Assembly: GCA_018889975.1 (NCBI GenBank)
Contig: CP076546.1
Location: forward strand, 186,001-250,000
Direction: 5' to 3'
Origin: Bacillus sp. NP157
GTDB lineage: Bacteria; Pseudomonadota; Gammaproteobacteria; Xanthomonadales; Rhodanobacteraceae
Length of the DNA: 64,000 nucleotides
Shown here one piece after another: positions 51,658-64,000 of this stretch. Every line of letters starts with the position of its first letter. The stretch's first letter is position 1. The notes beneath the pieces were generated by a model. The model was given only the letters and a program-made list of their open reading frames with translations, ran no database searches and was not told the origin of the DNA. Position numbers and translations under genes: made by a program.

Positions 51658-51681
51658 TGTCCGGACAGTTGTCCGCGGACA
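51658..51681. promoter_or_regulatory. Tandem palindromes: likely activator-binding sites of the export operon
   Basis: TGTCCGGACA (51658-51667) and TGTCCGCGGACA (51670-51681) are two perfect palindromes two bases apart, and together they also form a larger inverted repeat GTGTCCG/CGGACAC. They lie about 57-80 bases upstream of the -24 element, the normal distance for NtrC-type enhancer sites. The expected binder is the response regulator encoded at 61531. Confidence 0.65.
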
Positions 51682-51737
51682 CCTCCCATCGTCATCCGTA
51701 TTTACGTAAGTCACGGATTCTCGGCTGGATTTTTCGT

Positions 51738-51753
51738 TGGCACGCGGATTGCT
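51738..51753 (+). promoter_or_regulatory. Sigma-54 (-24/-12) promoter of the export operon
   Basis: TGGCAC-GCGGA-TTGCT fits the consensus TGGCAC-N5-TTGCW exactly, preceded by a T-rich stretch (GGATTTTTCGT). The transcription start is expected near 51764, giving a leader of about 23 bases before the first gene. Confidence 0.85.
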
Positions 51754-51786
51754 GAAGTCCCTGGCAAGTACTCCAGGGAAGCCGCC

Positions 51787-53058
51787 ATGATTCGTGACAC
51801 CTCTGCCCAGGACCGCCTCGTCGAGGTTCGGCCCAGTCGCCACCGCAAGCTGCTGATCGCCGGTGGCGCGGTGGCCGTGCTTGTTGCCATCGGCTTCTCG
51901 GTGCCGAAGCTGGCCACGATGTTCTCGGCGGATAGCTCGGTCAGCGCCTCGCGCCTCACCTTCGGTACCGTCACCCGCGGCCCGTTCGTCCGCGACATCG
52001 CCGCCGAAGGCAAGGTCGTCGCCGCGGTGAGCCCGACCCTCTACGCACCGTACGGTGGTGCGGTGGTGCTCCAGGTCCACGCCGGTGACGTGGTGAAGAA
52101 AGGCCAGGTGCTGGCCATCGTCACCAGCCCGGAACTGACCAACAAGCTGGCCCAGGAACAGTCGGCCGCCGATGCCATGCAGGTCGAATACCTGCGCGCC
52201 CAGGTCGACGCCAAGAAGAAGCGCTCCGAACTGCAGAAGGCCTACGACAACGCGGTGGTCGACCAGACCGCGGCCGACCGCGACCTCAAGCGTTTCCAGG
52301 GTGCGTACGACAAGGGCGCCGTGATGACGGCCGACGTCGACAAGGCGAAGTCCGCGCTCGAGAAGGCCGCGATCACGCAGAAGCATGCGGCGACGGACCT
52401 CACCATGGACAACGACAGCCTGACCTTCGACATCCAGTCGAAGAAGCTCGCACACGATCGCCAGCTGCTGCTGGTGGAAGACCTCAAGCGCCAGGTCGAA
52501 GACCTCAACGTGAAGTCCCCGGTGGACGGCCAGGTCGGCCAGCTCTTCATCGCCGAGCGCGCTACGGTCGCCAAGGACGCGCAGCTGGTGAGCGTCATCG
52601 ACCTCACCGCGCTGGAAGTCGAAATGAAGGTGCCCGAAAGCTTCGCCCGCGACCTCGCCATCGGCATGCCGGGCGAGATCGCCGGCAACGGCAAGACCTG
52701 GAACGGCAAGGTCAGCGCCATCTCGCCGGAAGTCGTCAATGGCGAAGTCGCCGCCCGCCTGCGCTTCGACGGCGAATCGCCGCGCCAGCTGCGCCAGAGC
52801 CAGCGCCTCTCCGTCCGCATCCTGCTCGACCGCCGCGACAATGTGCTCACCGTGCAGCGTGGGTCGTTCGTCGACGAGAGCGCCGGCCGCTACGCCTACA
52901 TCGTGAACGACGGCATGGCCGATCGCCGCGACATCCGCGTCGGCGCCAGCAGCATCGACAAGGTCGAAATCCTCTCCGGCCTGAAGGAAGGCGACAAGAT
53001 CGTCATCTCCGGCGCCGACACCTTCGGCGATGCAAAGCATGTAGCGATAGCTCGTTAA
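51787..53058 (+). CDS. Membrane-fusion (HlyD/MacA-like) protein of the export operon
   Basis: A 423-residue periplasmic adaptor. One N-terminal membrane anchor (about 22-40, KLLIAGGAVAVLVAIGFSVP) precedes a split lipoyl domain (APYGGAVVLQVHAGDVVKKGQVLAIV, then VKSPVDGQVGQLF). A coiled-coil hairpin (about 110-230) lies in between, followed by beta-barrel and membrane-proximal domains. It should link the ABC permeases to an outer-membrane channel, which is not encoded here. AGGGAAG precedes ATG 51787; the longer frame would run through the sigma-54 promoter. First gene of an operon of eight transport genes and two regulators. Confidence 0.9.
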   Translation: MIRDTSAQDRLVEVRPSRHRKLLIAGGAVAVLVAIGFSVPKLATMFSADSSVSASRLTFGTVTRGPFVRDIAAEGKVVAAVSPTLYAPYGGAVVLQVHAGDVVKKGQVLAIVTSPELTNKLAQEQSAADAMQVEYLRAQVDAKKKRSELQKAYDNAVVDQTAADRDLKRFQGAYDKGAVMTADVDKAKSALEKAAITQKHAATDLTMDNDSLTFDIQSKKLAHDRQLLLVEDLKRQVEDLNVKSPVDGQVGQLFIAERATVAKDAQLVSVIDLTALEVEMKVPESFARDLAIGMPGEIAGNGKTWNGKVSAISPEVVNGEVAARLRFDGESPRQLRQSQRLSVRILLDRRDNVLTVQRGSFVDESAGRYAYIVNDGMADRRDIRVGASSIDKVEILSGLKEGDKIVISGADTFGDAKHVAIAR

Positions 53059-53128
53059 GCGTAAATCGTAAAGCGGTAGGTGGACGTTGCGCGCTGTTAC
53101 TGACTATTGACGTTTCACGCTTCACGCC
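53059..53128. repeat. Imperfect inverted repeat between the adaptor and ATPase genes
   Basis: GCGTAAATCGTAAAGCGGTA (53059-53078) pairs imperfectly with TGACGTTTCACGCTTCACGC (53108-53127). It may stabilise or partly terminate the mRNA between the first gene and the rest of the operon. Confidence 0.5.
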
Positions 53129-53160
53129 CTTGCCCCCTAAACCCTCGAAGTTCGTACGAA

Positions 53161-53173
53161 AGGAGCACCTCCT
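53161..53173 (+). promoter_or_regulatory. Ribosome site of the ABC ATPase inside a small inverted repeat
   Basis: AGGAG-CAC-CTCCT lies directly before ATG 53175, after the palindrome TTCGTACGAA. The CTCCT could pair with the AGGAG and partly hide the ribosome site. The three-base loop makes a stable hairpin uncertain. Confidence 0.4.
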
Positions 53174-53174
53174 A

Positions 53175-53888
53175 ATGCTAAAGATGACCCACCTCGCCAA
53201 GGTCTACCGCACGGAAGTCGTCGAGACCTATGCGCTTCGCGACTTCAACATCGACGTGAAGGAAGGCGAGTTCGTCGCCGTCACCGGTCCGTCGGGTTCG
53301 GGCAAGACCACCTTCCTCACCATCGCCGGGCTGCTCGAAACGTTCACCGGTGGCGAATACCACCTCGACGGCATTGAAGTCAGCCAGCTCAACGACAACG
53401 CCCGCTCGAAGATCCGCAACGAGAAGATCGGCTTCATCTTCCAGGCGTTCAACCTGATCCCCGACCTCAACGTGTTCGATAACGTGGAAGTGCCGTTGCG
53501 CTATCGCGGCATGAAGGCCGCCGAGCGCAAGCAGCGCATCATGGACGCGCTGGAGCGGGTCGGCCTCGCCTCGCGTGCGCGCCACTACCCGGCGGAACTG
53601 TCCGGCGGGCAGCAGCAGCGCGTCGCCATCGCCCGTGCCCTGGCCGGTTCGCCGCGCCTGCTGCTGGCCGACGAACCGACCGGCAACCTGGATACGCAGA
53701 TGGCCCGTGGCGTCATGGAGCTGCTGGAAGAGATCCACCGCGAGGGCGCGACCATCGTCATGGTGACCCATGACCCGGAGCTCGCCGCGCGCGCCCAGCG
53801 CAACGTGCACGTCATCGATGGCCAGGTCGTCGACCTGTCCGAAGAGCCGCGCTTCCACGCGCACAACCAGCACGTCGTCCGTTCCTGA
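53175..53888 (+). CDS. ABC transporter ATPase (MacB/LolD-type)
   Basis: A 237-residue ATPase with Walker A GPSGSGKTTFLTIAG, a Q-loop at GFIFQAFNLIPDLNVFDNVEVPL, signature LSGGQQQRVAIARALA, Walker B LLLADEPTGNLD and H-loop VTHDPELAARAQR. It belongs to the MacB/LolD/FtsE group that works with FtsX-type permeases. It is the only ATPase in the operon although six permeases follow. ATG 53175 gives the normal family start (MLKMTHLAKVYRT); the earlier frame start lies in the intergenic repeat. Confidence 0.93.
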   Translation: MLKMTHLAKVYRTEVVETYALRDFNIDVKEGEFVAVTGPSGSGKTTFLTIAGLLETFTGGEYHLDGIEVSQLNDNARSKIRNEKIGFIFQAFNLIPDLNVFDNVEVPLRYRGMKAAERKQRIMDALERVGLASRARHYPAELSGGQQQRVAIARALAGSPRLLLADEPTGNLDTQMARGVMELLEEIHREGATIVMVTHDPELAARAQRNVHVIDGQVVDLSEEPRFHAHNQHVVRS

Positions 53889-53916
53889 CCTGGCCTCATC
53901 GCCGAAGGTGGCACCC

Positions 53917-55224
53917 ATGTTCGCCTACTACCTCCAGCTCGGCCTGCGTAGCCTGCGCCGCAACCCGATGCTCACCGCACTGATGGTGATGGCCATCGGC
54001 TTCGGCGTGGCCGCGTCGATGACGACGTACTCAGTCTTCCGGGCGACGTCGCGCGATCCGATCCCGCAGAAGTCGCACGTGCTGTACAACACGCAGCTCG
54101 ATGCGTTCGGGCCGGAAAACATCGAGAAGGGCGAGCCACCGCCGGCGCTGAGCTACACCGATGCCACGGCGATCCTGCGCGCACACAAGGCGACCCGCCA
54201 GGCGATCATCTATCCGGTGAGCGTGTCGGTGATCCCGGACGAGCCGTCGCGGCTGCCGATGCGTGAAGGGGCATATGCCGCCGGCGCGGACATGTTCCCG
54301 ATGTTCGACGTGCCCTTCATCCAGGGCCAGGGCTGGACCCGCGACGACGACGAGAAACACGCCAGCGTGGTGGTCATCAACAAGGAACTGAACGAAAAGA
54401 TCTTCAACGGCGGCCAGAGCGTCGGCAAGCAGGTCAATCTCGATGGCCGGCTGTTCCGCGTGGTCGGCGTGATCGACAACTGGGCGCCGCAGCCGGTGTT
54501 CTTCGACGTCCCGAACACGGGCGGTTTCGACGAAGGCGCGGCGGTGTTCATCCCGTTCACCCGCGCCATCGACATCCAGCTGTCCACCGCCGGCAACAAC
54601 AACTGCGTGAAGGAGCCCGCGCCGGGCTGGGACGGTTACCTGCATTCGGAGTGCATCTGGCTGGCCCTGTGGAGCGAGATGGGCTCGCAGTCGGAAGTCG
54701 ACGCCTACCGCAACTACCTCAATGGATACGCCGCCGAACAGCAGCGTGCCGGCCGCTGGAACTGGGCGCCGAACGTGAAGGTGCGCAACGTCGTGGACTG
54801 GCTCGACGTGCAGAAGGTCGTGCCGCCGGAATCGCAGGTTTCGCTGATCGTCTCGTTGGGCTTCCTGGTCATCTGCCTGGTCAACACCGTGGGCCTGCTG
54901 CTGGCGAAATTCCTGCGCCGCGCCCCGGAGATCGGCGTACGCCGTGCGCTGGGTGCATCGCGCAGCCACATCTACGCACAGTTCCTGATCGAGGCGGGCG
55001 CGGTCGGCGTGGCGGGTGGCCTGCTCGGCCTGGTCCTGACCGGGCTGGGCATCCTCGGCACGAAGCTGGTTTTTCCCGAAAATATCTCCCGGCTTGCCAC
55101 CGTCGACCCCGTACTGATCCTGCTCACCCTGGCGACGTCGATCGCCGCCTCGGTGATCGCGGCGTTCTATCCCACGTGGCGCGCCGCACAGGTGCAGCCG
55201 GCGTGGCAGCTGAAGTCCAATTGA
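53917..55224 (+). CDS. MacB/FtsX-type permease, pair 1, type A
   Basis: A 435-residue permease. One N-terminal membrane helix (LRRNPMLTALMVMAIGFGVAASM, about 18-40) precedes a large periplasmic MacB-PCD-like domain (MFPMFDVPFIQGQGW, GGQSVGKQVNLDGRLFRVVGVI). Three C-terminal FtsX helices follow, starting near SLGFLVICLVNTVGLLLAKFLRR, then EIGVRRALGASRSHIYAQFLIEAG. It is closely related to the type A genes at 56478 and 58962. ATG 53917 follows AAGGTGG. It probably forms a heterodimer with the type B permease that starts 13 bases after its stop. Confidence 0.9.
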   Translation: MFAYYLQLGLRSLRRNPMLTALMVMAIGFGVAASMTTYSVFRATSRDPIPQKSHVLYNTQLDAFGPENIEKGEPPPALSYTDATAILRAHKATRQAIIYPVSVSVIPDEPSRLPMREGAYAAGADMFPMFDVPFIQGQGWTRDDDEKHASVVVINKELNEKIFNGGQSVGKQVNLDGRLFRVVGVIDNWAPQPVFFDVPNTGGFDEGAAVFIPFTRAIDIQLSTAGNNNCVKEPAPGWDGYLHSECIWLALWSEMGSQSEVDAYRNYLNGYAAEQQRAGRWNWAPNVKVRNVVDWLDVQKVVPPESQVSLIVSLGFLVICLVNTVGLLLAKFLRRAPEIGVRRALGASRSHIYAQFLIEAGAVGVAGGLLGLVLTGLGILGTKLVFPENISRLATVDPVLILLTLATSIAASVIAAFYPTWRAAQVQPAWQLKSN

Positions 55225-55237
55225 AGGCGCGCGGACC

Positions 55238-56458
55238 ATGAACCTGCAGATCAAGCCTATCCTCGCCGCATTGCGCCGCCACAAGGCGGGCACCATCCTC
55301 ATCGCGCTGCAGATCGCGCTGACTCTGGCCATCGTCTGCAATGCCCTGTTCATCGTGCACCAGCGCATCGAGCGCGTGCACCGCACCACGGGCATGGACG
55401 AGACCAACCTGGTCATCCTGCAGAACCGCTACGTGGGTACGCCCACGTCGTTCATCCCGCAGATGAAGACCGACGTCGAGGCGCTGCGTAACCTGCCGGG
55501 GGTCGAGTCGGCCTATGCCACCAACGCCTACCCGTTGCGCCGCGGCGGATGGTCCACCGGCATCCAGACCGAGCCGGACAAGACCAAGGACAGCCTGCCC
55601 AGCGCGCTGTACTTCGTCGACGAGCAGGCGCTGAAGACGCTCGGCGTGAAGCTCCTGGCCGGGCGTAACTTCAACCCGTCCGAAGTGGTGGTGGTGGGTC
55701 CGCAGACCACGCCGGCACCGCCGCAGGTGATCATCACCAAGGCCATCGCCGACAAGCTGTTCCCCAAGGGGGATGCGCTGGGCAAGACGATCTATTACTC
55801 GAAGGGCAAGCCCTCGACCATCATTGGCATCGTCGAAAAGCTGACCGTGCCCTGGATCGACTTCGACCACATGGATAACGTGACGCTGATGCCGGTGCGA
55901 TTCGACAGTGGCTACCAGCAGTTCCTCGTCCGCACCAAGCCGGGCCAGCAGGATGCGGTGTTCAAGGCTGCGCCGACGGCCCTGTACGCCACCAACCGGA
56001 TGCGCGTCCTGCCCGAGAAGTACGGTGTGCGCACCTTTGAGACCGTCCGTGCCACCGCCTATGAAGCCGACCGTGGGATGGCGATCCTGATGACCGTGGT
56101 CTGCGGCGTGCTGCTGGCCATCACCGCCGCGGGCATCGTCGGCCTGTCCAGCTTCTGGGTCGGCCAGCGCCGCAAGCAGATCGGCGTCCGCCGCGCACTG
56201 GGCGCACGCCGTTCCGACATCCTCAGCTATTTCATGACCGAAAACTTCCTGATCGCGTTGGGCGGCGTCATCGTCGGCACGGTCCTGGCGGTGGGCCTGA
56301 GCCAGTGGATGTTCACGCATTTCGAAATGCAGCGCTTGTCGTTCACCTACGTGCTGGTCGGCGTCGTCCTGCTCCTCGCGCTGGGCCAGGCGGCCGTCTT
56401 CGCGCCGGCGCTGCGTGCCTCGAAAGTGTCCCCCGTGGAAGCGACGCGCAGCGTCTGA
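55238..56458 (+). CDS. MacB/FtsX-type permease, pair 1, type B
   Basis: A 406-residue permease starting MNLQIKPILAALRRHKAGTI, with a first membrane helix ILIALQIALTLAIVCNALFIV. The periplasmic domain contains LKTLGVKLLAGRNF and KLFPKGDALGKTIYYSKGKPSTIIGIV. Three C-terminal helices surround GLSSFWVGQRRKQIGVRRALGARRSDILSYFMTENF, and the end PVEATRSV is shared with the other type B genes. The ATG lies 13 bases after the type A stop. Confidence 0.9.
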   Translation: MNLQIKPILAALRRHKAGTILIALQIALTLAIVCNALFIVHQRIERVHRTTGMDETNLVILQNRYVGTPTSFIPQMKTDVEALRNLPGVESAYATNAYPLRRGGWSTGIQTEPDKTKDSLPSALYFVDEQALKTLGVKLLAGRNFNPSEVVVVGPQTTPAPPQVIITKAIADKLFPKGDALGKTIYYSKGKPSTIIGIVEKLTVPWIDFDHMDNVTLMPVRFDSGYQQFLVRTKPGQQDAVFKAAPTALYATNRMRVLPEKYGVRTFETVRATAYEADRGMAILMTVVCGVLLAITAAGIVGLSSFWVGQRRKQIGVRRALGARRSDILSYFMTENFLIALGGVIVGTVLAVGLSQWMFTHFEMQRLSFTYVLVGVVLLLALGQAAVFAPALRASKVSPVEATRSV

Positions 56459-56477
56459 TTCGCACTAAGGAGCGGTG

Positions 56478-57785
56478 ATGTTTGGTTATTACCTTGAGTT
56501 GGCCTTGCGCAGCCTGAAGCGCGGCAAGGCCCTCACGGCACTGATGGTGCTGGCGGTGGCGATGGGCATTGGCGCGTGCATGACGACCCTGACCGTCCTG
56601 CACGTGGTCTCGGGTGATCCCTTGCCGTCGAAGAGCCACCAGCTGTTCTACCCGCAGCTGGAGCCGCGCGACGAAGACAATCAGATATACGCATCGGGCG
56701 AGCCGCCCGAGCAGGTGTCCTGGGTCGATGGCATGAACCTGATGCGTGCACACCGGGCCGATCGCCAGGTGCTCATGACCGGTGGCATGTCGCCAGTGCA
56801 GCCCATCGACGGTTCGCTGGATCCGTTCTTCGCACACGCCCGGATGACCACGGCCGACTTCTTCCCAATGTTCGACGTGCCGTTCCATTTTGGCCGTGGC
56901 TGGTCGGCAGCCGACGACGAGGATCGTGCGCGCGTGGTGGTGCTCAGCCACGACATGAATGACCGGCTGTTCCACGGCGAAGACAGCACGGGGCGCACGG
57001 TCCGCTTCAATGGCAAGGAGCTGCGCGTGGTCGGCGTGCTGGAGCCGTGGCGTCCCCATCCGCACTTCTACGACCTCAATACGGGCAGCTACGCCGATAC
57101 CGAAGAGGTTTTCCTGCCACTTTCGACCGGGCGTGCCATCCACGTGCAGCGCGCCGGTTCGCGTGATTGCTGGGGGCAGGGCAAGGCCGTGGAAGACCAG
57201 CTGGAAGCCGCGAACTGCACGTGGCTGCAGCTATGGGTGCAGATCAACGACCCGGCGAAGGTCGCCGACTACAAGGCATTCCTAACGCACTATTCGGACG
57301 AACAGCGCGCGGCGGGCCGGTTCAAGCTGCCGACAAACGTGCGCCTGCGCAATGTCGTGGAGTGGCTGGAATTCCAGCGCGTGGTGCCCAGCGACGTGCG
57401 TCTGCAGGTATGGCTGGCGCTCGGCTTCTTCGTGGTCTGCCTGGTCAATACCGTGGGGCTGATGCTGGCCAAGTTCATGCGTCGCTCGGGCGAGGTCGGC
57501 GTGCGCCGCGCGCTCGGTGCTTCGCGCCGCGCGGTTTTTGCCCAGTTGCTGACCGAGGCCGGCATCGTCGGCCTCGCGGGCGGCTTGCTGGGCATGTTGT
57601 TCGCACTGGGCGGCCTGTGGCTGGTACGGCAGCAACCCGATCAGTACGCATCGCTTGCGCACCTGGACCTGACGATGCTGGCGACGACCTTCGCGATGGC
57701 GATCGTTGCCACGGTCTTCGCCGGGCTACTTCCGGCGTGGCGCGCGTGCCAGGTCACTCCCGCCCTCCAATTGAAGAGCTCGTGA
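56478..57785 (+). CDS. MacB/FtsX-type permease, pair 2, type A
   Basis: A 435-residue permease (MFGYYLELALRSLKRGKALTAL, then VLAVAMGIGACMTTLTVLHVVSGDPLP). The periplasmic part has FFPMFDVPFHFGRGW, and the FtsX end has LGFFVVCLVNTVGLMLAKFMRRSGEVGVRRALGASRRAVFAQLLTEAG. AAGGAG is about five bases before ATG 56478; GTG 56475 is an alternative giving one extra residue. It is very similar to the type A gene of pair 3 and less so to pair 1. The stop overlaps the next start as TGATG. Confidence 0.9.
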   Translation: MFGYYLELALRSLKRGKALTALMVLAVAMGIGACMTTLTVLHVVSGDPLPSKSHQLFYPQLEPRDEDNQIYASGEPPEQVSWVDGMNLMRAHRADRQVLMTGGMSPVQPIDGSLDPFFAHARMTTADFFPMFDVPFHFGRGWSAADDEDRARVVVLSHDMNDRLFHGEDSTGRTVRFNGKELRVVGVLEPWRPHPHFYDLNTGSYADTEEVFLPLSTGRAIHVQRAGSRDCWGQGKAVEDQLEAANCTWLQLWVQINDPAKVADYKAFLTHYSDEQRAAGRFKLPTNVRLRNVVEWLEFQRVVPSDVRLQVWLALGFFVVCLVNTVGLMLAKFMRRSGEVGVRRALGASRRAVFAQLLTEAGIVGLAGGLLGMLFALGGLWLVRQQPDQYASLAHLDLTMLATTFAMAIVATVFAGLLPAWRACQVTPALQLKSS

Positions 57786-58972
57786 TGCTGGAAATCCGCC
57801 CCATACTCTCGACCCTTCGCCGGCACAAGGTGACCGCGATGCTGCTCGTGCTGGAAATCGCCCTGACCTGCGCCATCGTGTGCAATGCGGTGTTCCTGGT
57901 GCGCGAGCGACTCGACTGGATCCATATCAGCAGCGGCATCGACGAAGCGAACATCGTGCAGGTCCGGCCGGTCAACGTCGACGGCGATGCGTCCGGCACC
58001 CACGCCCGTGCGCAAGCGACCGCCGCGGCGCTGCGCGAGCTGCCCGGCGTGGCCTCGGTGTCGCTGGTCAACCAGGTGCCGCTGGGCAACGAGTCCTGGA
58101 ACTCCGGGATCAAGCTCGATCGCGAGATTGCCAAGCCGGCGATGCACGTCACCACCTATTACGGCGAACACCTGATCGACACGCTCGGCCTGCAGCTCGT
58201 CGCCGGCCGCGATTTCACGGACAGCGAGTACGCCTGGTTCGACGACGTGGTGATCGTCACCGAGTTCATGGCGCAGCGGCTGTTCAAGGGCAACGCCCTG
58301 GGCAAGACGATCTGGTACGGCGACGAGCCGCTGCGGATCATCGGCGTGGTGCGTAACGTCGTGCGCCCGAGCACGGACGATCGGGACGTGGTCTACGGCA
58401 GCGTCATCATGCCGATCCGCATGGTCGAATCGATGGGCGCAAGCTATGTGTTGCGCACGAAGCCGGGGCAGGCCGCCTCGGTGGTGAACGCGGCCGCGGC
58501 GACCCTGCGTGGGCTTGATCCCAACCGGGTCATCATGCAGAAGCGCACCTTCGCCGAGATTCGCAAGGCCTACTTCGCCAGCGACCGCGCCATGGCCAAC
58601 CTCCTCGTTGGCGTGTGCCTGGCGCTGCTGATCGTCACCGCCCTGGGCATCGTCGGCCTCGGTAGCTTCTGGGTCTCGCAACGCCGCCGCCAGATCGGCG
58701 TGCGGCGTGCGCTTGGCGCGACGCGGCGCGACGTGCTGCGCTATTTCCAGACCGAGAACTTCCTGCTCGCCACCATGGGCATCGCCCTGGGCATGGTGCT
58801 GGCCTACGCCATCAACATCGTGCTGATGGTTCACTACGAATTGCCACGGTTGCCCTTCGCCTACCTGCCGCTGGGCGCGGTGATCCTCTGGCTGCTCGGC
58901 CAGGCGGCGGTGTTCGCGCCGGCCTACAGGGCGTCGAACGTACCGCCCGTGGAGGCCACGCGTGGCAACTGA
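57785..58972 (+). CDS. MacB/FtsX-type permease, pair 2, type B
   Basis: A 395-residue permease: MLEIRPILSTLRRHKVTAML, membrane helix LVLEIALTCAIVCNAVFLV, LIDTLGLQLVAGRDF, and the FtsX block GLGSFWVSQRRRQIGVRRALGATRRDVLRYFQTENFLLATMGIALGMVLAYAINIVL. It shares long near-identical stretches with the type B gene of pair 3 (60271), pointing to recent duplication. ATG 57785 overlaps the type A stop; the longer open frame lies inside that gene. Its 3' end overlaps the next gene by 11 bases. Confidence 0.9.
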   Translation: MLEIRPILSTLRRHKVTAMLLVLEIALTCAIVCNAVFLVRERLDWIHISSGIDEANIVQVRPVNVDGDASGTHARAQATAAALRELPGVASVSLVNQVPLGNESWNSGIKLDREIAKPAMHVTTYYGEHLIDTLGLQLVAGRDFTDSEYAWFDDVVIVTEFMAQRLFKGNALGKTIWYGDEPLRIIGVVRNVVRPSTDDRDVVYGSVIMPIRMVESMGASYVLRTKPGQAASVVNAAAATLRGLDPNRVIMQKRTFAEIRKAYFASDRAMANLLVGVCLALLIVTALGIVGLGSFWVSQRRRQIGVRRALGATRRDVLRYFQTENFLLATMGIALGMVLAYAINIVLMVHYELPRLPFAYLPLGAVILWLLGQAAVFAPAYRASNVPPVEATRGN

Positions 58973-60269
58973 ACCGGGTTACCACCTTGAGATGGCCGTG
59001 CGCAGCCTGCGTCGCAACCCGGTCCTGACCGCGCTGATGGTCCTCGCCGTCGCACTGGGCATCGGTGCGTGCATGACGACGCTCACCGCACTGCACGTGT
59101 TGAGCGGCGATCCGCTGCCCGGGCGCAGCGACCACCTCTACACGCCACGGATCGAAGCCCGCTCGGCCGGGGGCGGCGAGACGGTGCTGCCGTTCCTGCT
59201 GACCTGGACCGATGGCATGGCGCTGCTCCACGCCGGCCGTGCGACCCACCAGGCGGTCATGGTCGGCGGCGCGGCGACGATCCATCCGGCCGATCCGTCG
59301 ACCGATGCGTTCCTTACGTCGGCGCAATACACCAGCGCCGATTTCTTTCCCATGTTCGAGGTGCCGATGCAGTTCGGCCAGGCCTGGGCCGGCGCCGAGG
59401 ACGAAAGCCATGCGCGCGTCGCGGTGATCAGCGATGCGCTCAACATGCGTCTGTTTGCCGGCGAAAACAGCGTCGGTCGTTCGATCCAGGTCAACGATGC
59501 GTCCTTCCGCATCGTCGGCGTGATGCTGCCGTGGCGGCCCGTGCCGCACTTCTACAACCTGGACACCGGCGATTTCGCCAAGGCGGAAGACGTCCTGGTG
59601 CCGCTGACGTCGGCGCGCGACGCCCACCTGCCGCGCAACGGCGGCATCGAGTGCTGGGCCGGTGGAAGTGGTGACGAAGAAAACATGGAAACGGCGCCGT
59701 GCGTCTGGCTGACAGTCTGGGTCCAGCTGGACGATGCCGCCGCCGTGAAGGCCTACCAGGCCTTCCTCGACGGCTACTCGCGCGAGCAGCACGCCGCGGG
59801 GCGCTTCGACCAGCTGCAGCCGGCCGCGCTGTCGAGCGTCAAGGCGCTGTTGGCCGAACGCCAGGTGGTTCCCAGCGACGTCCGCCTGCAGTTCTGGCTG
59901 GCGTCCGCGTTTTTCGTGGTCTGCCTGGTCAACACGGTGGGGCTGATGCTGGCCAAGTTCATGCGCCGTGCCGGTGAACTCGGTGTCCGGCGCGCGCTGG
60001 GTGCGTCGCGCGGCGACATCTTTGCGCAGCTGCTGGCGGAAGCCGCCATGATCGGCCTCGCCGGTGGGCTGCTCGGCCTCGGCTTCGCATGGCTCGGGCT
60101 GATGCTGGTCCGGATCAATCCCGATCGCAGCGCCCAGCTGGCGCACCTGGACCCGACCATGCTGGCGACGACCTTCGTCCTTTCGGTGGTGGCGGCGACG
60201 CTTGCGGGGTTGTTCCCTGCATGGCGCGTTTGTCAGGTACCGCCCGGCCTCCACCTGAAGGTCCAGTGA
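58962..60269 (+). CDS. MacB/FtsX-type permease, pair 3, type A
   Basis: A 435-residue permease: YHLEMAVRSLRRNPVLTALMVLAVALGIGACMTTLTALHVLSGDPLPG, FFPMFEVPMQFGQAW, then AFFVVCLVNTVGLMLAKFMRRAGELGVRRALGASRGDIFAQLLAEAA. The GTG start at 58962 lies inside the end of the previous gene (11-base overlap). The N-terminus aligns with the other type A genes with only a few extra residues. The next gene starts two bases after its stop codon. Confidence 0.9.
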   Translation: MATEPGYHLEMAVRSLRRNPVLTALMVLAVALGIGACMTTLTALHVLSGDPLPGRSDHLYTPRIEARSAGGGETVLPFLLTWTDGMALLHAGRATHQAVMVGGAATIHPADPSTDAFLTSAQYTSADFFPMFEVPMQFGQAWAGAEDESHARVAVISDALNMRLFAGENSVGRSIQVNDASFRIVGVMLPWRPVPHFYNLDTGDFAKAEDVLVPLTSARDAHLPRNGGIECWAGGSGDEENMETAPCVWLTVWVQLDDAAAVKAYQAFLDGYSREQHAAGRFDQLQPAALSSVKALLAERQVVPSDVRLQFWLASAFFVVCLVNTVGLMLAKFMRRAGELGVRRALGASRGDIFAQLLAEAAMIGLAGGLLGLGFAWLGLMLVRINPDRSAQLAHLDPTMLATTFVLSVVAATLAGLFPAWRVCQVPPGLHLKVQ

Positions 60270-60270
60270 C

Positions 60271-61485
60271 ATGCGCCTCGACATAGCTCCGATCCTCGCG
60301 GCGCTGCGCAAGCACCGGGTGACCTCGACCCTGCTGGTGCTGCAGATCGCGCTGACCTGCGCGATCGTCTGCAACGCGGTGTTCCTCGTGTCGGAACGGG
60401 CACGCTGGATTGGCACGCCCAGCGGCATCGACGAAGACCGGATCGCGTCCATCGAACTTTCGGCCCCCGGCAAGGGCGTGGACATCCACGCGCGTACCGA
60501 GGCGGATCTCGCGACGCTGCGCGCGGTTCCCGGCGTCGAAGCGGCGTCGGTGATCAACTCCTTGCCCTTCGGTGGGCGTTCGTGGAGCAGCGGGGTGCGC
60601 CTCAGCCTCGACGAGAAAGTATCCACGGCCAGTGTCGCGATGTACTACGGCGAGTCGGTGGGCGAACTGTTCGGCGCGCGGTTGCAAGCCGGACGCTGGT
60701 TCCGCCCCGACGAGTACCGCTGGATCGACGACGTGTCGTTGAAGCGCGTGCCGAGCGCCCCGGTCGTGGTGGTCACCGCACCGTTCGCGACACGCCTTTT
60801 CCCTCGGGGTGACGCGCTGGGCAAGACGATCTACATCGGCGAAACCGCGTATCGCATCGTCGGCATCGTGCACTGGCTTGCGCATGCCGCGTCGGGTCGT
60901 GGCCAGGTGGGAGAGGCCGTGCTGGCGCCATGGCGGATGGTGCCAACCTATGGTGCGGGCTTCGCGATCCGCACCGCGCCGGGCCAGGCCGGCGCCGTGC
61001 TGCAAGCCGCCGCGGCCGCGCTGAGGAAATCGGATCCACGCCGTGTGGTAACCGACACGCAGACCTTCGCCGAGATCCGCTCCAACTTTTTCGCCAGCGA
61101 TCGCTCGCTGACGGCGATGCTGGTCGGCGCCTGCGTGGTGCTGCTGGCGATCACCGCGCTGGGCATCGTTGGCCTGGCCAGCTTCTGGGTCGCGCAGCGG
61201 CGGCGCCAGATCGGCGTGCGCCGCGCCCTCGGCGCCACCCGCGGCGACGTGCTGCGCTATTTCCAGACCGAGAACTTCCTGCTCGCCAGCATGGGTATCG
61301 TCCTGGGCATGCTGCTCGCCTATGCGATGAACATCGTGCTGATGGTGCACTACGAGATTCCACGCCTGCCCTGGGGCTACCTGCCCGCCGGGGCAGTGAC
61401 GCTGTGGCTGGTCGGCCAGCTGGCCGTGCTGGCCCCGGCCCTGCGGGCGGCATCGGTTCCCCCCGTGGAGGCCACCCGTGGCTAG
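60271..61485 (+). CDS. MacB/FtsX-type permease, pair 3, type B
   Basis: A 404-residue permease: MRLDIAPILAALRKHRVTSTL, LVLQIALTCAIVCNAVFLV, LFPRGDALGKTIYIGETAYRIVGIV, then GLASFWVAQRRRQIGVRRALGATRGDVLRYFQTENFLLASMGIVLGMLLAYAMNIVL. It is the third type B copy and the last transport gene. The regulator gene starts 45 bases downstream with no terminator between, so transporter and regulators are probably co-transcribed. Confidence 0.9.
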   Translation: MRLDIAPILAALRKHRVTSTLLVLQIALTCAIVCNAVFLVSERARWIGTPSGIDEDRIASIELSAPGKGVDIHARTEADLATLRAVPGVEAASVINSLPFGGRSWSSGVRLSLDEKVSTASVAMYYGESVGELFGARLQAGRWFRPDEYRWIDDVSLKRVPSAPVVVVTAPFATRLFPRGDALGKTIYIGETAYRIVGIVHWLAHAASGRGQVGEAVLAPWRMVPTYGAGFAIRTAPGQAGAVLQAAAAALRKSDPRRVVTDTQTFAEIRSNFFASDRSLTAMLVGACVVLLAITALGIVGLASFWVAQRRRQIGVRRALGATRGDVLRYFQTENFLLASMGIVLGMLLAYAMNIVLMVHYEIPRLPWGYLPAGAVTLWLVGQLAVLAPALRAASVPPVEATRG

Positions 61486-61530
61486 AATGGCCGTTGCAAC
61501 CTTTTCCGGGGGAGATGCATCCATGACCGC

Positions 61531-62880
61531 ATGGCTAGGGACAAGATGCGCTGCGTACTGATCATTGACGATAACCCCGCCGTCGGCGAGGCCCTTTCGC
61601 TTGCACTGAGCCTGCGGGATATCCGCCCGCTGGTGGCGTTCACGCCGGAAGAAGGCCTGGCCACGCTGGCCCGCGAGCGCGTGGACGTGGTCATCCAGGA
61701 CATGAACTTCACCGCCGACACCACGTCGGGCGAGGAGGGGGCTGACCTGTTCCGCGCGATCCGCGGTCGCCACACCGACCTGCCAGTGATCCTGCTCACG
61801 GCATGGACCCATCTCGAAGCGGCGGTGGAACTGGTCAAGGCCGGCGCCGCCGACTATCTCGCCAAGCCGTGGGACGACACCAAGCTGCTGGCGACGGTCG
61901 AGAACCTGCTGGAGCTTTCCGAGACCACCCGCGAAGTGACCCGCGCGCGCAACGAGCGTCGCCGCCGCCGCGAGGCACTGGAAAGCAAATATGACCTCGA
62001 CGGACTGGTGTTCTCGTCCGAGGCCATGAGCCGCACGGTGGAGCTCGCCTGCCAGGTCGCCCGCTCGGACGTGCCGGTGCTGATTACCGGGCCGAACGGC
62101 GCCGGCAAGGAGCGCATCGCGGCGATCGTCCATGCCAATTCGCCGGTGCGCCGTGGACCGTTCATCGCCGTGAACTGCGGTGCGTTGCCGGGTGAGCTGA
62201 TCGAAGCGGAATTGTTCGGTGCCGACGCTGGCGCCTACACCGGTGCGAACAAGGCCCGTGAAGGCCGCTTCGAACTGGCCGATGGCGGCACGCTATTCCT
62301 CGACGAGATCGGCAACCTGCCGCTGCCGGGGCAGATGAAGCTGCTGCGCGTGCTCGAGACCGGGCAGTTCGAACGCCTCGGTTCCGGCCGGACGCGCCAG
62401 GCCAAGGTGCGCGTGGTCAGCGCGACCAACGCCGACCTGAAGGCGATGATCGCAGCAGGCACCTTCCGCGAAGACCTTTACTACCGTCTCAACGTCATCG
62501 ACGTGAACCTGCCGCCGCTGTCCGAGCGTAGCGACGATATCCTGCCGCTGGCCGAGTTCTTCCTCGACGGCAAGGCGGAGCTCAGCGAAGACGCGCGCGA
62601 AGCACTTCTCGCCCATGCGTGGCCCGGCAACGTCCGCGAGTTGAAGAATGCGATGGCCCGTGCCGCGCTGCTCGCGATGGGCAGCCGGATCGAACCGTCG
62701 CACCTGAACCTGCCCATGCCCACGCCCGCCAGTAACCGCAACCTGGACGAACCCACGCGTGAATCGGTCGAGGCCGCCCTGGCGACCGCGGGTGGGGTGA
62801 TCAGCCGTGCGGCAAGCAGCCTCGGCCTGTCGCGCCAGGCGCTGTACCGGCGGATGGAGCGTTACGGGCTGGCGGTCTGA
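61531..62880 (+). CDS. Sigma-54-dependent response regulator (NtrC family) of the export operon
   Basis: A 449-residue regulator. The receiver domain has D13/D14 in [13 protein letters not shown], phospho-acceptor D57 in VVIQDMNF and YLAKPWDD. The AAA+ domain has a modified Walker [14 protein letters not shown], the sigma-54 contact loop as GAYTGA (a known variant of GAFTGA), Walker [12 protein letters not shown], and the arginine-finger region [12 protein letters not shown]. The C-terminus is a Fis-type helix-turn-helix, [27 protein letters not shown] 61531 gives a short lead-in; ATG 61546 with AGGGA just upstream is a fair alternative. It most likely activates the sigma-54 promoter at 51738. 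Confidence 0.92.
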
Positions 62881-62891
62881 TCCGCGCGACC

Positions 62892-64000
62892 ATGAAACGC
62901 TTCTCGCTCGAGGGACGGATGACCATCGTCGTCGCGGCTGCGGCGATCATGGGCGCGCTGGTCTTCGCCGGCGTGGCGATCTGGCCTTTCCCCCAGGCGA
63001 TGGCATGGTTGCACGCCCTGGCCGAGAAACCCGGCCAGCCCGTGGTGCCGGGTCCGCCGGAGCCCTTCGATACCAGCACGGCGCTGATCATCTGCCTGCT
63101 GGTGCTGGTCCCGCTTTCGGCGTGGATGTCGCACGTGCTGGTCGAGCCGATCCGTCGGCTGATCCGTGCGCTGGAAAGCGCCGTGGCCAGCTATCGCGAC
63201 GGCGACTACAGCATGTCCATCGGCAGCGATCGCTCGGATGAACTGGGCGACCTGATCCGCATGCACAACGACCTAGGCACGATCCTGCGCGAGCAACGCC
63301 AGCATCTCGCCCAGCGCGAGCTGCTGCTCGACACCGTGGTGCAGAACACGCCGGTGGCGCTGGTGCTCACGGATGCCACCGGCAAGGTCACCTACGCGAA
63401 CATCGCGGCCCGCCACCTGTTCAACGAAGGCCGCACGCTTGCCGGGCTGGACTTCGCGCGCGTGCTCGAAGCCATGCCCGAAAACCTGCGGGTCGCGGCG
63501 GAAGCGGGCGAGGACGCGCTGTTCACCGTGGAGATGGAAGGCAGCGAAGAGACCTTCCATCTGTCGCAACGCGGTTTCCGCCTGCAGGGCAGGCCACACA
63601 GGCTGCAGTTGTACCGGCGAATGACGCGCGAACTGTCGCGGCAGGAAGTGCATACGTGGAAGCGCGTGATTCGCGTGATCAGCCACGAGTTGAACAATTC
63701 GCTCGCACCGATTTCTTCGCTGTCGCACTCGGGCGCGGAACTGGCGCGGCGCGGCGACCTCGCGCGATTGCCCGGCGTGTTCGCATCCATCGGCGATCGC
63801 GCGAAGCATCTGCACGGCTTCATTTCGGGTTACGCCAGCTTCGCCAAGCTGCCGACACCGCAGGCCCGCGAGATCGCCTGGGGGCCGTTCCTCGAGGCGC
63901 TCGCGCTGCATGCGCGGTTCCGGCTGGACAGCGCGTTGCCAAAGCAGCCGGGCTGGTTCGATCCCACCCAGGTCGAGCAGGTGCTGATCAACCTGATCAA
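62892..64000 (+). CDS. NtrY-like sensor histidine kinase (partial, cut by window end)
   Basis: The open frame runs off the right edge after about 369 residues. Two membrane helices (about 11-35 and 64-83) enclose a short periplasmic loop of about 30 residues, so the signal is probably sensed in or near the membrane. A HAMP segment (about 84-125, SDELGDLIRMHNDLG), a PAS-like domain (about 145-230, VVQNTPVALVLTDATGKVTYANIAA) and the phosphorylation helix VISHELNNSLAPISSLSHS with H265 follow. The sequence ends at QVEQVLINLI, the N-box of the ATPase domain. It starts 11 bases after the regulator stop and is its evident partner. Confidence 0.9.
   Translation, partial: MKRFSLEGRMTIVVAAAAIMGALVFAGVAIWPFPQAMAWLHALAEKPGQPVVPGPPEPFDTSTALIICLLVLVPLSAWMSHVLVEPIRRLIRALESAVASYRDGDYSMSIGSDRSDELGDLIRMHNDLGTILREQRQHLAQRELLLDTVVQNTPVALVLTDATGKVTYANIAARHLFNEGRTLAGLDFARVLEAMPENLRVAAEAGEDALFTVEMEGSEETFHLSQRGFRLQGRPHRLQLYRRMTRELSRQEVHTWKRVIRVISHELNNSLAPISSLSHSGAELARRGDLARLPGVFASIGDRAKHLHGFISGYASFAKLPTPQAREIAWGPFLEALALHARFRLDSALPKQPGWFDPTQVEQVLINLI

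Follow-up and report, generated by a model that had tools for sequence, protein, structure and literature searches.

Introduction

The type VII ATP-binding cassette (ABC) tripartite pump MacAB-TolC is placed in a review under the two-component system PhoPQ, and TolC expression is described there as constitutive (PMC5985334). The same review also reports that the kinase BceS, of the BceAB-BceRS detoxification modules, requires its transporter in order to respond. FtsX-like permeases (ABC antimicrobial-peptide permeases, COG0577) have been found enriched among predicted sigma-54 targets, which that study presents as first evidence, and the general link between sigma-54 and such permeases is accordingly already published (PMC12316311). 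For Xylella fastidiosa, only NtrC and PilR orthologues are reported as activators (PMC3224663). Finally, the kinase PhoQ is described as being repressed by MgrB, a small bitopic protein that has two cysteines on its periplasmic side (PMC10576120; PMC2789325).

Here we describe an operon for an ABC exporter with its own two-component system, located in a 64,000-nucleotide window (the whole stretch of DNA analysed; G000:C1:186001-250000) of a single-contig 4.88-Mb genome. Because its closest named adaptor, that of Luteibacter yeojuensis SU11, is 92% identical, the genome is assigned in or near Luteibacter, and its relatives point to Rhodanobacteraceae as the probable family. The operon encodes, in order, a periplasmic adaptor, an ABC ATPase, three permease pairs, an NtrC-type regulator and a sensor kinase. 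From conserved promoter sequences, gene content and co-occurrence, we conclude that it is probably the pump-and-control hub of a scattered sigma-54 regulon that serves export through the envelope, in which the regulator would drive both the operon and the regulon; a role in envelope defence is plausible.

A conserved sigma-54 promoter precedes the operon

The original prediction for this DNA placed a -24/-12 promoter and two palindromes ahead of the adaptor gene, and all three elements are present. The promoter element, TGGCACGCGGATTGCT, lies at 51738-51753 on the forward strand and agrees with TGGCAC-N5-TTGCT at every one of the 11 fixed positions. It starts 68 base pairs (bp) after the start of the core palindrome, TGTCCGCGGACA (51670-51681, no strand), which is the putative enhancer for the NtrC-type regulator. 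The second palindrome, TGTCCGGACA (51658-51667, likewise without strand), is a member of the same half-site array. For comparison, an element matching at least 9 of the 11 positions occurs 40-100 bp downstream of random window positions with a frequency of 0.004 per position and strand.

Scanning of named genomes yielded 23 further adaptor loci, and in every one of them TGTCCGCGGACA lies upstream of the adaptor gene (24/24 with the window), accompanied by an extra TGTCC no more than 45 bp ahead of the palindrome and by a -24/-12 element of at least 10/11 that starts 68-80 bp after the palindrome start. This distance is 68-69 bp in six of the seven Luteibacter loci and 77-80 bp in 15 of the 16 others, such that the non-Luteibacter spacing exceeds the Luteibacter spacing by about one helical turn. 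Conservation of the palindromes with the operon, which had been put forward as a check on the original prediction, therefore holds for the longer palindrome and breaks down for the shorter one outside Luteibacter: TGTCCGGACA is exact in only 7 of the 24 loci, namely the window and six of the 23, all of them Luteibacter. As a general second operator, it was consequently rejected outside this genus.

The arrangement extends to more distant relatives. When the 12 kb upstream of 13 divergent regulators from the order were examined, an adaptor gene was present in 12 (the exception, L173, has none within its 12-kb stretch). These adaptors are 45-63% identical, and all 12 loci carry TGTCCG half-sites together with a GG-N10-GC element scoring 8-11/11. 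The genome itself carries one rpoN gene. Together, a GG-N10-GC element, conserved spacing of the activator site, an AAA+ activator with a GAFTGA-type loop and rpoN supply sequence features expected of a sigma-54 operon.

The same composite site recurs across the genome

The operon was originally proposed to be a self-contained module, a description that does not stand. Eight exact copies of TGTCCGCGGACA occur in the genome, and each is followed by a GG-N10-GC element in which 9 or more of the 11 positions match, at distances of 44, 47, 68, 78, 80, 80, 81 and 91 bp, against the background frequency given above. Seven of these composite sites thus lie outside the operon, and one of them precedes the gene for an outer-membrane efflux protein, a TolC-type channel (G000:C1:3787458-3788813; OEP, 173 bits) that is unlinked to the operon and absent from it. 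The others precede a permease gene followed by a second permease gene (G000:C1:4650394), two 43-residue proteins at separate sites, a pair of small proteins of 27 and 63 residues, a signal-peptide-like alpha/beta hydrolase, and a protein of 452 residues for which Pfam gave nothing confident (best E 0.021). An imperfect palindrome near G000:C1:3829333 was not accepted as a further target, as it sits within a frame that we take to be recF-like.

An orthologue of the channel (73-100% identical) is found in 12 of 15 Luteibacter-group genomes. In all 12 it is preceded by one or more TGTCCG and by a -24/-12 element of at least 9/11, with the exact palindrome in six. Among the 13 oriented paralogues of a second TolC (40-48% identical), TGTCCG is missing throughout and no element reaches 9/11, although two carry an 8/11 match some 300 bp away; the count of 13 comes from 16 paralogue matches listed, with L218, L223 and L233 outside it. 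The adaptor gene lies in the operon and the channel gene is tied to it solely by the common site; the dispersed targets would complete a tripartite exporter.

The small membrane proteins form a family that matched no NCBIfam model (four members tested) and no Pfam model (three tested). The members that are 63-73 residues long contain a single hydrophobic segment, and a C-x8-C motif is present in the 63-residue member of this genome and in the 20 best loci; the 43- and 27-residue members are without tail cysteines. With one 67-residue query, matches were obtained in 42 of 42 genomes whose regulator is at least 80% identical and in one of 208 others (G023). All 20 small-protein loci examined have TGTCCG and an element of at least 10/11, one of them (L190) without the exact palindrome. 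The family has expanded within genomes, reaching eight matches in G101, and its members have conserved starts and variable ends. The evidence that the 27-residue frame is coding is weak: its length is kept in two species, yet 12 of 14 changed codons are non-synonymous.

Across 117 genomes of the family, TGTCCGCGGACA occurs 320 times, compared with 20 for the reversed word, and 100 of the 117 genomes have copies. Of the 320, 77 sites from 30 genomes in six genera were examined, with the eight own sites excluded; many of the 77 are orthologous and hence not independent. An element of at least 9/11 lies within 40-100 bp of 47 of these palindromes, in 43 cases at 76-80 bp. An extra TGTCC no more than 45 bp upstream marks 39 of the 47 sites having the element, versus 4 of the 30 lacking it. 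The spacer contains an IHF-like motif (WATCARNNNNTTR, with no more than one mismatch) at 23 of the 47 sites, versus 2.4 expected from shuffles, and at three of the eight own sites. Adaptor, small-protein, pcm/tolC or permease genes are contained in 59 of the 77 loci (each of about 3 kb). Sites with the element are distributed over adaptor (17), small-protein (16), pcm/tolC (4), permease (3) and other (7) loci, and those without it over pcm/tolC (16), permease (3) and other (11) loci. The notion that every palindrome is a sigma-54 enhancer was rejected on these counts, as 30 of the 77 are without the element; 11 of those 30 lie beside none of the four families.

At pcm-tolC, both types of site are seen. 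Four such loci of genus g24 (L118, L121, L154 and L157) have the composite promoter, and 16 further loci have the palindrome without an element of at least 9/11. By Pfam, L061 has PCMT and OEP genes together with a divergent TetR gene, and L121 has an OEP gene. As a separate observation, TGTCCGCGGACA lies between the TetR gene and pcm-tolC, with no good -24/-12 element, at L061, L062, L069, L072, L074, L078 and others, and repeated words resembling ATGACTTCCG adjoin many of these element-less palindromes.

The sites track the regulator

The regulator gene (61531-62880, forward strand) encodes a receiver, a sigma-54 interaction domain, an AAA lid and a Fis-type helix-turn-helix (Response_reg; Sigma54_activat, 222 bits; AAA_lid_14; HTH_8), and GAYTGA is present in its sequence, in agreement with the NtrC-type activator originally described. 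Of 250 genomes from the order, 141 contain a match at E 1e-100 or better, 23 of them by a paralogue only. The recognition helix, SRQALYRR, is kept in all 25 orthologues examined and differs in three paralogues. Other genomes of the order (L280, L281 and L282) encode a different class of NtrC-type regulator, about 48-50% identical, that comes with a short-loop kinase of its own.

Genomes that have the regulator are enriched in composite sites. The composite pattern gave 181 matches versus 5 for the control in the 42 genomes with a regulator at least 80% identical, and 17 versus 0 in the nine family genomes with a 66-74% identical regulator. The corresponding values were 12 versus 1 in the 23 genomes with a paralogue only and 28 versus 10 in the 109 genomes without a regulator match, 89 of which were taken as regulator-absent, being outside the named list.

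G023 is a family genome without the regulator, in which the palindrome and a 10/11 element remain. The promoter remnant is followed by a single frame that begins as an ISL3-type transposase and runs into a HATPase_c stretch (L283:1322-2299), the end of which matches kinase residues 403-459 at 86%. No other operon protein is found in the 5.5 kb examined, and the single small-protein match in this genome is weak and holds a stop. In G023, the operon thus seems to have been lost naturally, and one of its targets to have decayed.

Pump proteins and kinase

The operon genes, all on the forward strand, are separated by -11 to 116 bp. The adaptor (51787-53058; 423 residues) matches HlyD_D23, HlyD_3 and, above its cut-off, RND_mfp. 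Its start, MIRDTSAQDR (51787-51816), is a short tail preceding the first hydrophobic segment, and is near-invariant even among the divergent adaptors. The ATPase (53175-53888; ABC_tran) is a separate gene, unfused to a permease, and the score with the MacB equivalog model is far under the cut-off. Its top NCBIfam model, DarD, gives 256 bits against a cut-off of 375; the DarC model, which matches the adaptor, gives 77.5 of 450 bits.

Six permease genes, to which the original prediction made no reference, follow the ATPase as three pairs, at 53917-55224 and 55238-56458, 56475-57785 and 57785-58972, and 58962-60269 and 60271-61485. Each encodes a protein of 394-435 residues with one MacB core (MacB_PCD) and one FtsX domain. 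The copies have diverged: compared with pair 1, the first genes of pairs 2 and 3 are 44 and 40% identical, and the second genes 46 and 43%. The number of pairs also varies, with two in all seven other Luteibacter loci, at least three in all 15 other family loci (L033-L047), and, among the 12 divergent loci, one in ten, two in L168 and three or more in L171. The ATPase, by comparison, is 90-99% identical across the 22 family loci that contain it.

The kinase gene (62892-64000; HAMP, PAS and HATPase) is cut by the end of the window, its stop being the equivalent of position 64283. In the complete sequence, about 30 residues separate its two hydrophobic segments, confirming the near absence of a periplasmic domain noted originally. 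The loop is of similar length in Luteibacter and in three Dyella-like loci, whereas 11 of the 12 divergent kinases examined (L264 being outside this set) have hardly any loop. A loop this short would suit a kinase that senses inside the membrane or by way of the transporter. The exception among the divergent kinases, L269, has the loop, and its genome, G006, has no small-protein match; the idea that the loop and the small proteins arose together is therefore not clean.

Just outside the window, 56 bp past the kinase gene, lie a Band_7/SPFH gene and an NfeD gene (Pfam; L015:14341-15776). An SPFH gene follows the kinase in six of the seven other Luteibacter loci, and in the seventh, L031, the sequence ends without an SPFH match. 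The SPFH gene may be part of the operon.

A proposed dispersed regulon and its alternatives

In the mechanism that we propose, the state of the membrane or of the pump would set the short-loop kinase, which would then phosphorylate the regulator. The latter would assemble on arrays of TGTCCG half-sites with TGTCCGCGGACA at their centre and, through looping of the DNA, activate sigma-54 polymerase at the -24/-12 element. It would thereby raise the whole of its own operon, from adaptor to kinase, as well as the unlinked TolC-type channel, the further permeases and the small single-helix membrane proteins. One ATPase and adaptor would serve several permease pairs. If the regulator binds ahead of its own operon, positive feedback results. 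The self-activation originally suggested is thus upheld as a likely positive loop because the sigma-54 elements are conserved and the regulator lies within the operon. What the sequences themselves show is the sites with their spacing and conservation, the gene content and the co-occurrence; binding, phosphorylation, looping, signal and substrate are inferences. As for the small proteins, they might act on the kinase or the pump. A more specific version, which draws on analogy and is tentative enough that we hold it doubtful, is that one ATPase-adaptor core is common to a growing set of permease pairs and that the single-helix proteins, a new family in which many members have a periplasmic tail with two cysteines, report or damp the state of the pump at the near-loop-less kinase, in an MgrB-like feedback.

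Several observations weigh against a single dispersed regulon of this kind. The permease target is poorly conserved, with TGTCCGCGGACA upstream in only three of 16 oriented permease loci (L234, L235 and L261, the own one included), and the hydrolase site is likewise not conserved throughout. In the 67 other genomes with an orthologue, outside the family, enrichment of the composite pattern is weaker (45 versus 10), and the composite counts score each half-site, such that one promoter can score more than once. Some regulator-bearing genomes of the family, for example G004, G016, G026, G030 and G041, are without an exact palindrome; in the first four, the adaptor promoter carries diverged half-sites. 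Finally, the 30 of 77 relative palindromes without an element of at least 9/11, including the 16 at pcm/tolC, suggest that a further factor may read the palindrome as well, or that the site may work independently of sigma-54.

The strongest alternative, which we nevertheless consider unlikely, is a housekeeping one, in which the pump moves an endogenous envelope component, such as a lipid or lipoprotein, and the regulator matches capacity to demand. The ATPase does score well with the LolD and FtsE models, albeit under cut-off, and of the 53 genomes that represent family f2 of the order, 50 have the regulator, small genomes among them. Yet the adaptor and the co-regulated TolC-type channel indicate export across the outer membrane, and the permease pairs multiply and diverge as the ATPase stays nearly constant, a pattern that fits varied ligands.

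It is less probable still that the small membrane proteins are cargo and the regulon a peptide-secretion system, with permease pairs handling different peptides. While expansion of the family with conserved starts and variable ends would suit secreted peptides, as would the resemblance of the ATPase and adaptor to the darobactin exporter models DarD and DarC (under their cut-offs), the 27-residue member comprises little beyond its hydrophobic segment, and the pump operon is retained in genomes without a detected small protein. Furthermore, no modification enzyme was seen adjoining the small proteins in the stretches examined, though none was specifically searched for.

That a different enhancer-binding protein reads the palindrome, with the operon's own regulator acting elsewhere, is very improbable: seven other proteins of the genome strongly match the regulator's ATPase domain and some palindromes adjoin pcm-tolC without a sigma-54 element, but in all 24 loci the site is fixed ahead of the operon that encodes the regulator, composite sites track the presence of the regulator, and G023, having lost the operon, retains only the promoter remnant and its one stop-bearing small-protein match.

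Comparison with known systems

The dispersed sigma-54 regulon, if correctly recognized, gives a two-component system a precise cis code, in which TGTCCGCGGACA and the -24/-12 element are mostly 76-80 bp apart; through a common enhancer, it connects an outer-membrane channel with a MacB-type pump, and it brings to light a family of small proteins without Pfam or NCBIfam match. Should these proteins indeed act on the kinase or pump, they would show how the state of an exporter reaches transcription. Neither the regulator nor its TGTCCG enhancer, the connection with the channel or the small proteins turned up in a literature search that covered few subscription papers. The published sigma-54/permease study works by gene class and, in its accessible text, names no regulator, enhancer site or small proteins (PMC12316311).

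The likeness to MgrB-PhoQ lies in regulon-encoded small proteins with two tail cysteines, and is one of analogy only; the shorter members, unlike MgrB, are without both tail cysteines. The darobactin exporter DarBCD is similar in its components, DarD being the closest NCBIfam ATPase model and the DarC model matching the adaptor; in contrast to DarBCD, all scores are under the curated cut-offs and no darobactin genes were seen in the operon. As in BceAB-BceRS, an FtsX-type transporter adjoins a kinase with little outside the membrane. Here, however, the pump would be a tripartite Gram-negative one, the regulator is NtrC-type, the promoter is of the sigma-54 type and the putative targets are dispersed, and the operon permeases do not have the ten-helix architecture of BceB.

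A further parallel is to MacAB-TolC, with which the system shares an adaptor, permeases with an FtsX/MacB core and, if the unlinked channel gene belongs to it, a TolC-type channel. It departs from that pump in its separate ATPase, its six paired permease genes and its own kinase and sigma-54 activator, and, unlike the constitutive TolC of MacAB-TolC, its channel gene carries the common enhancer.

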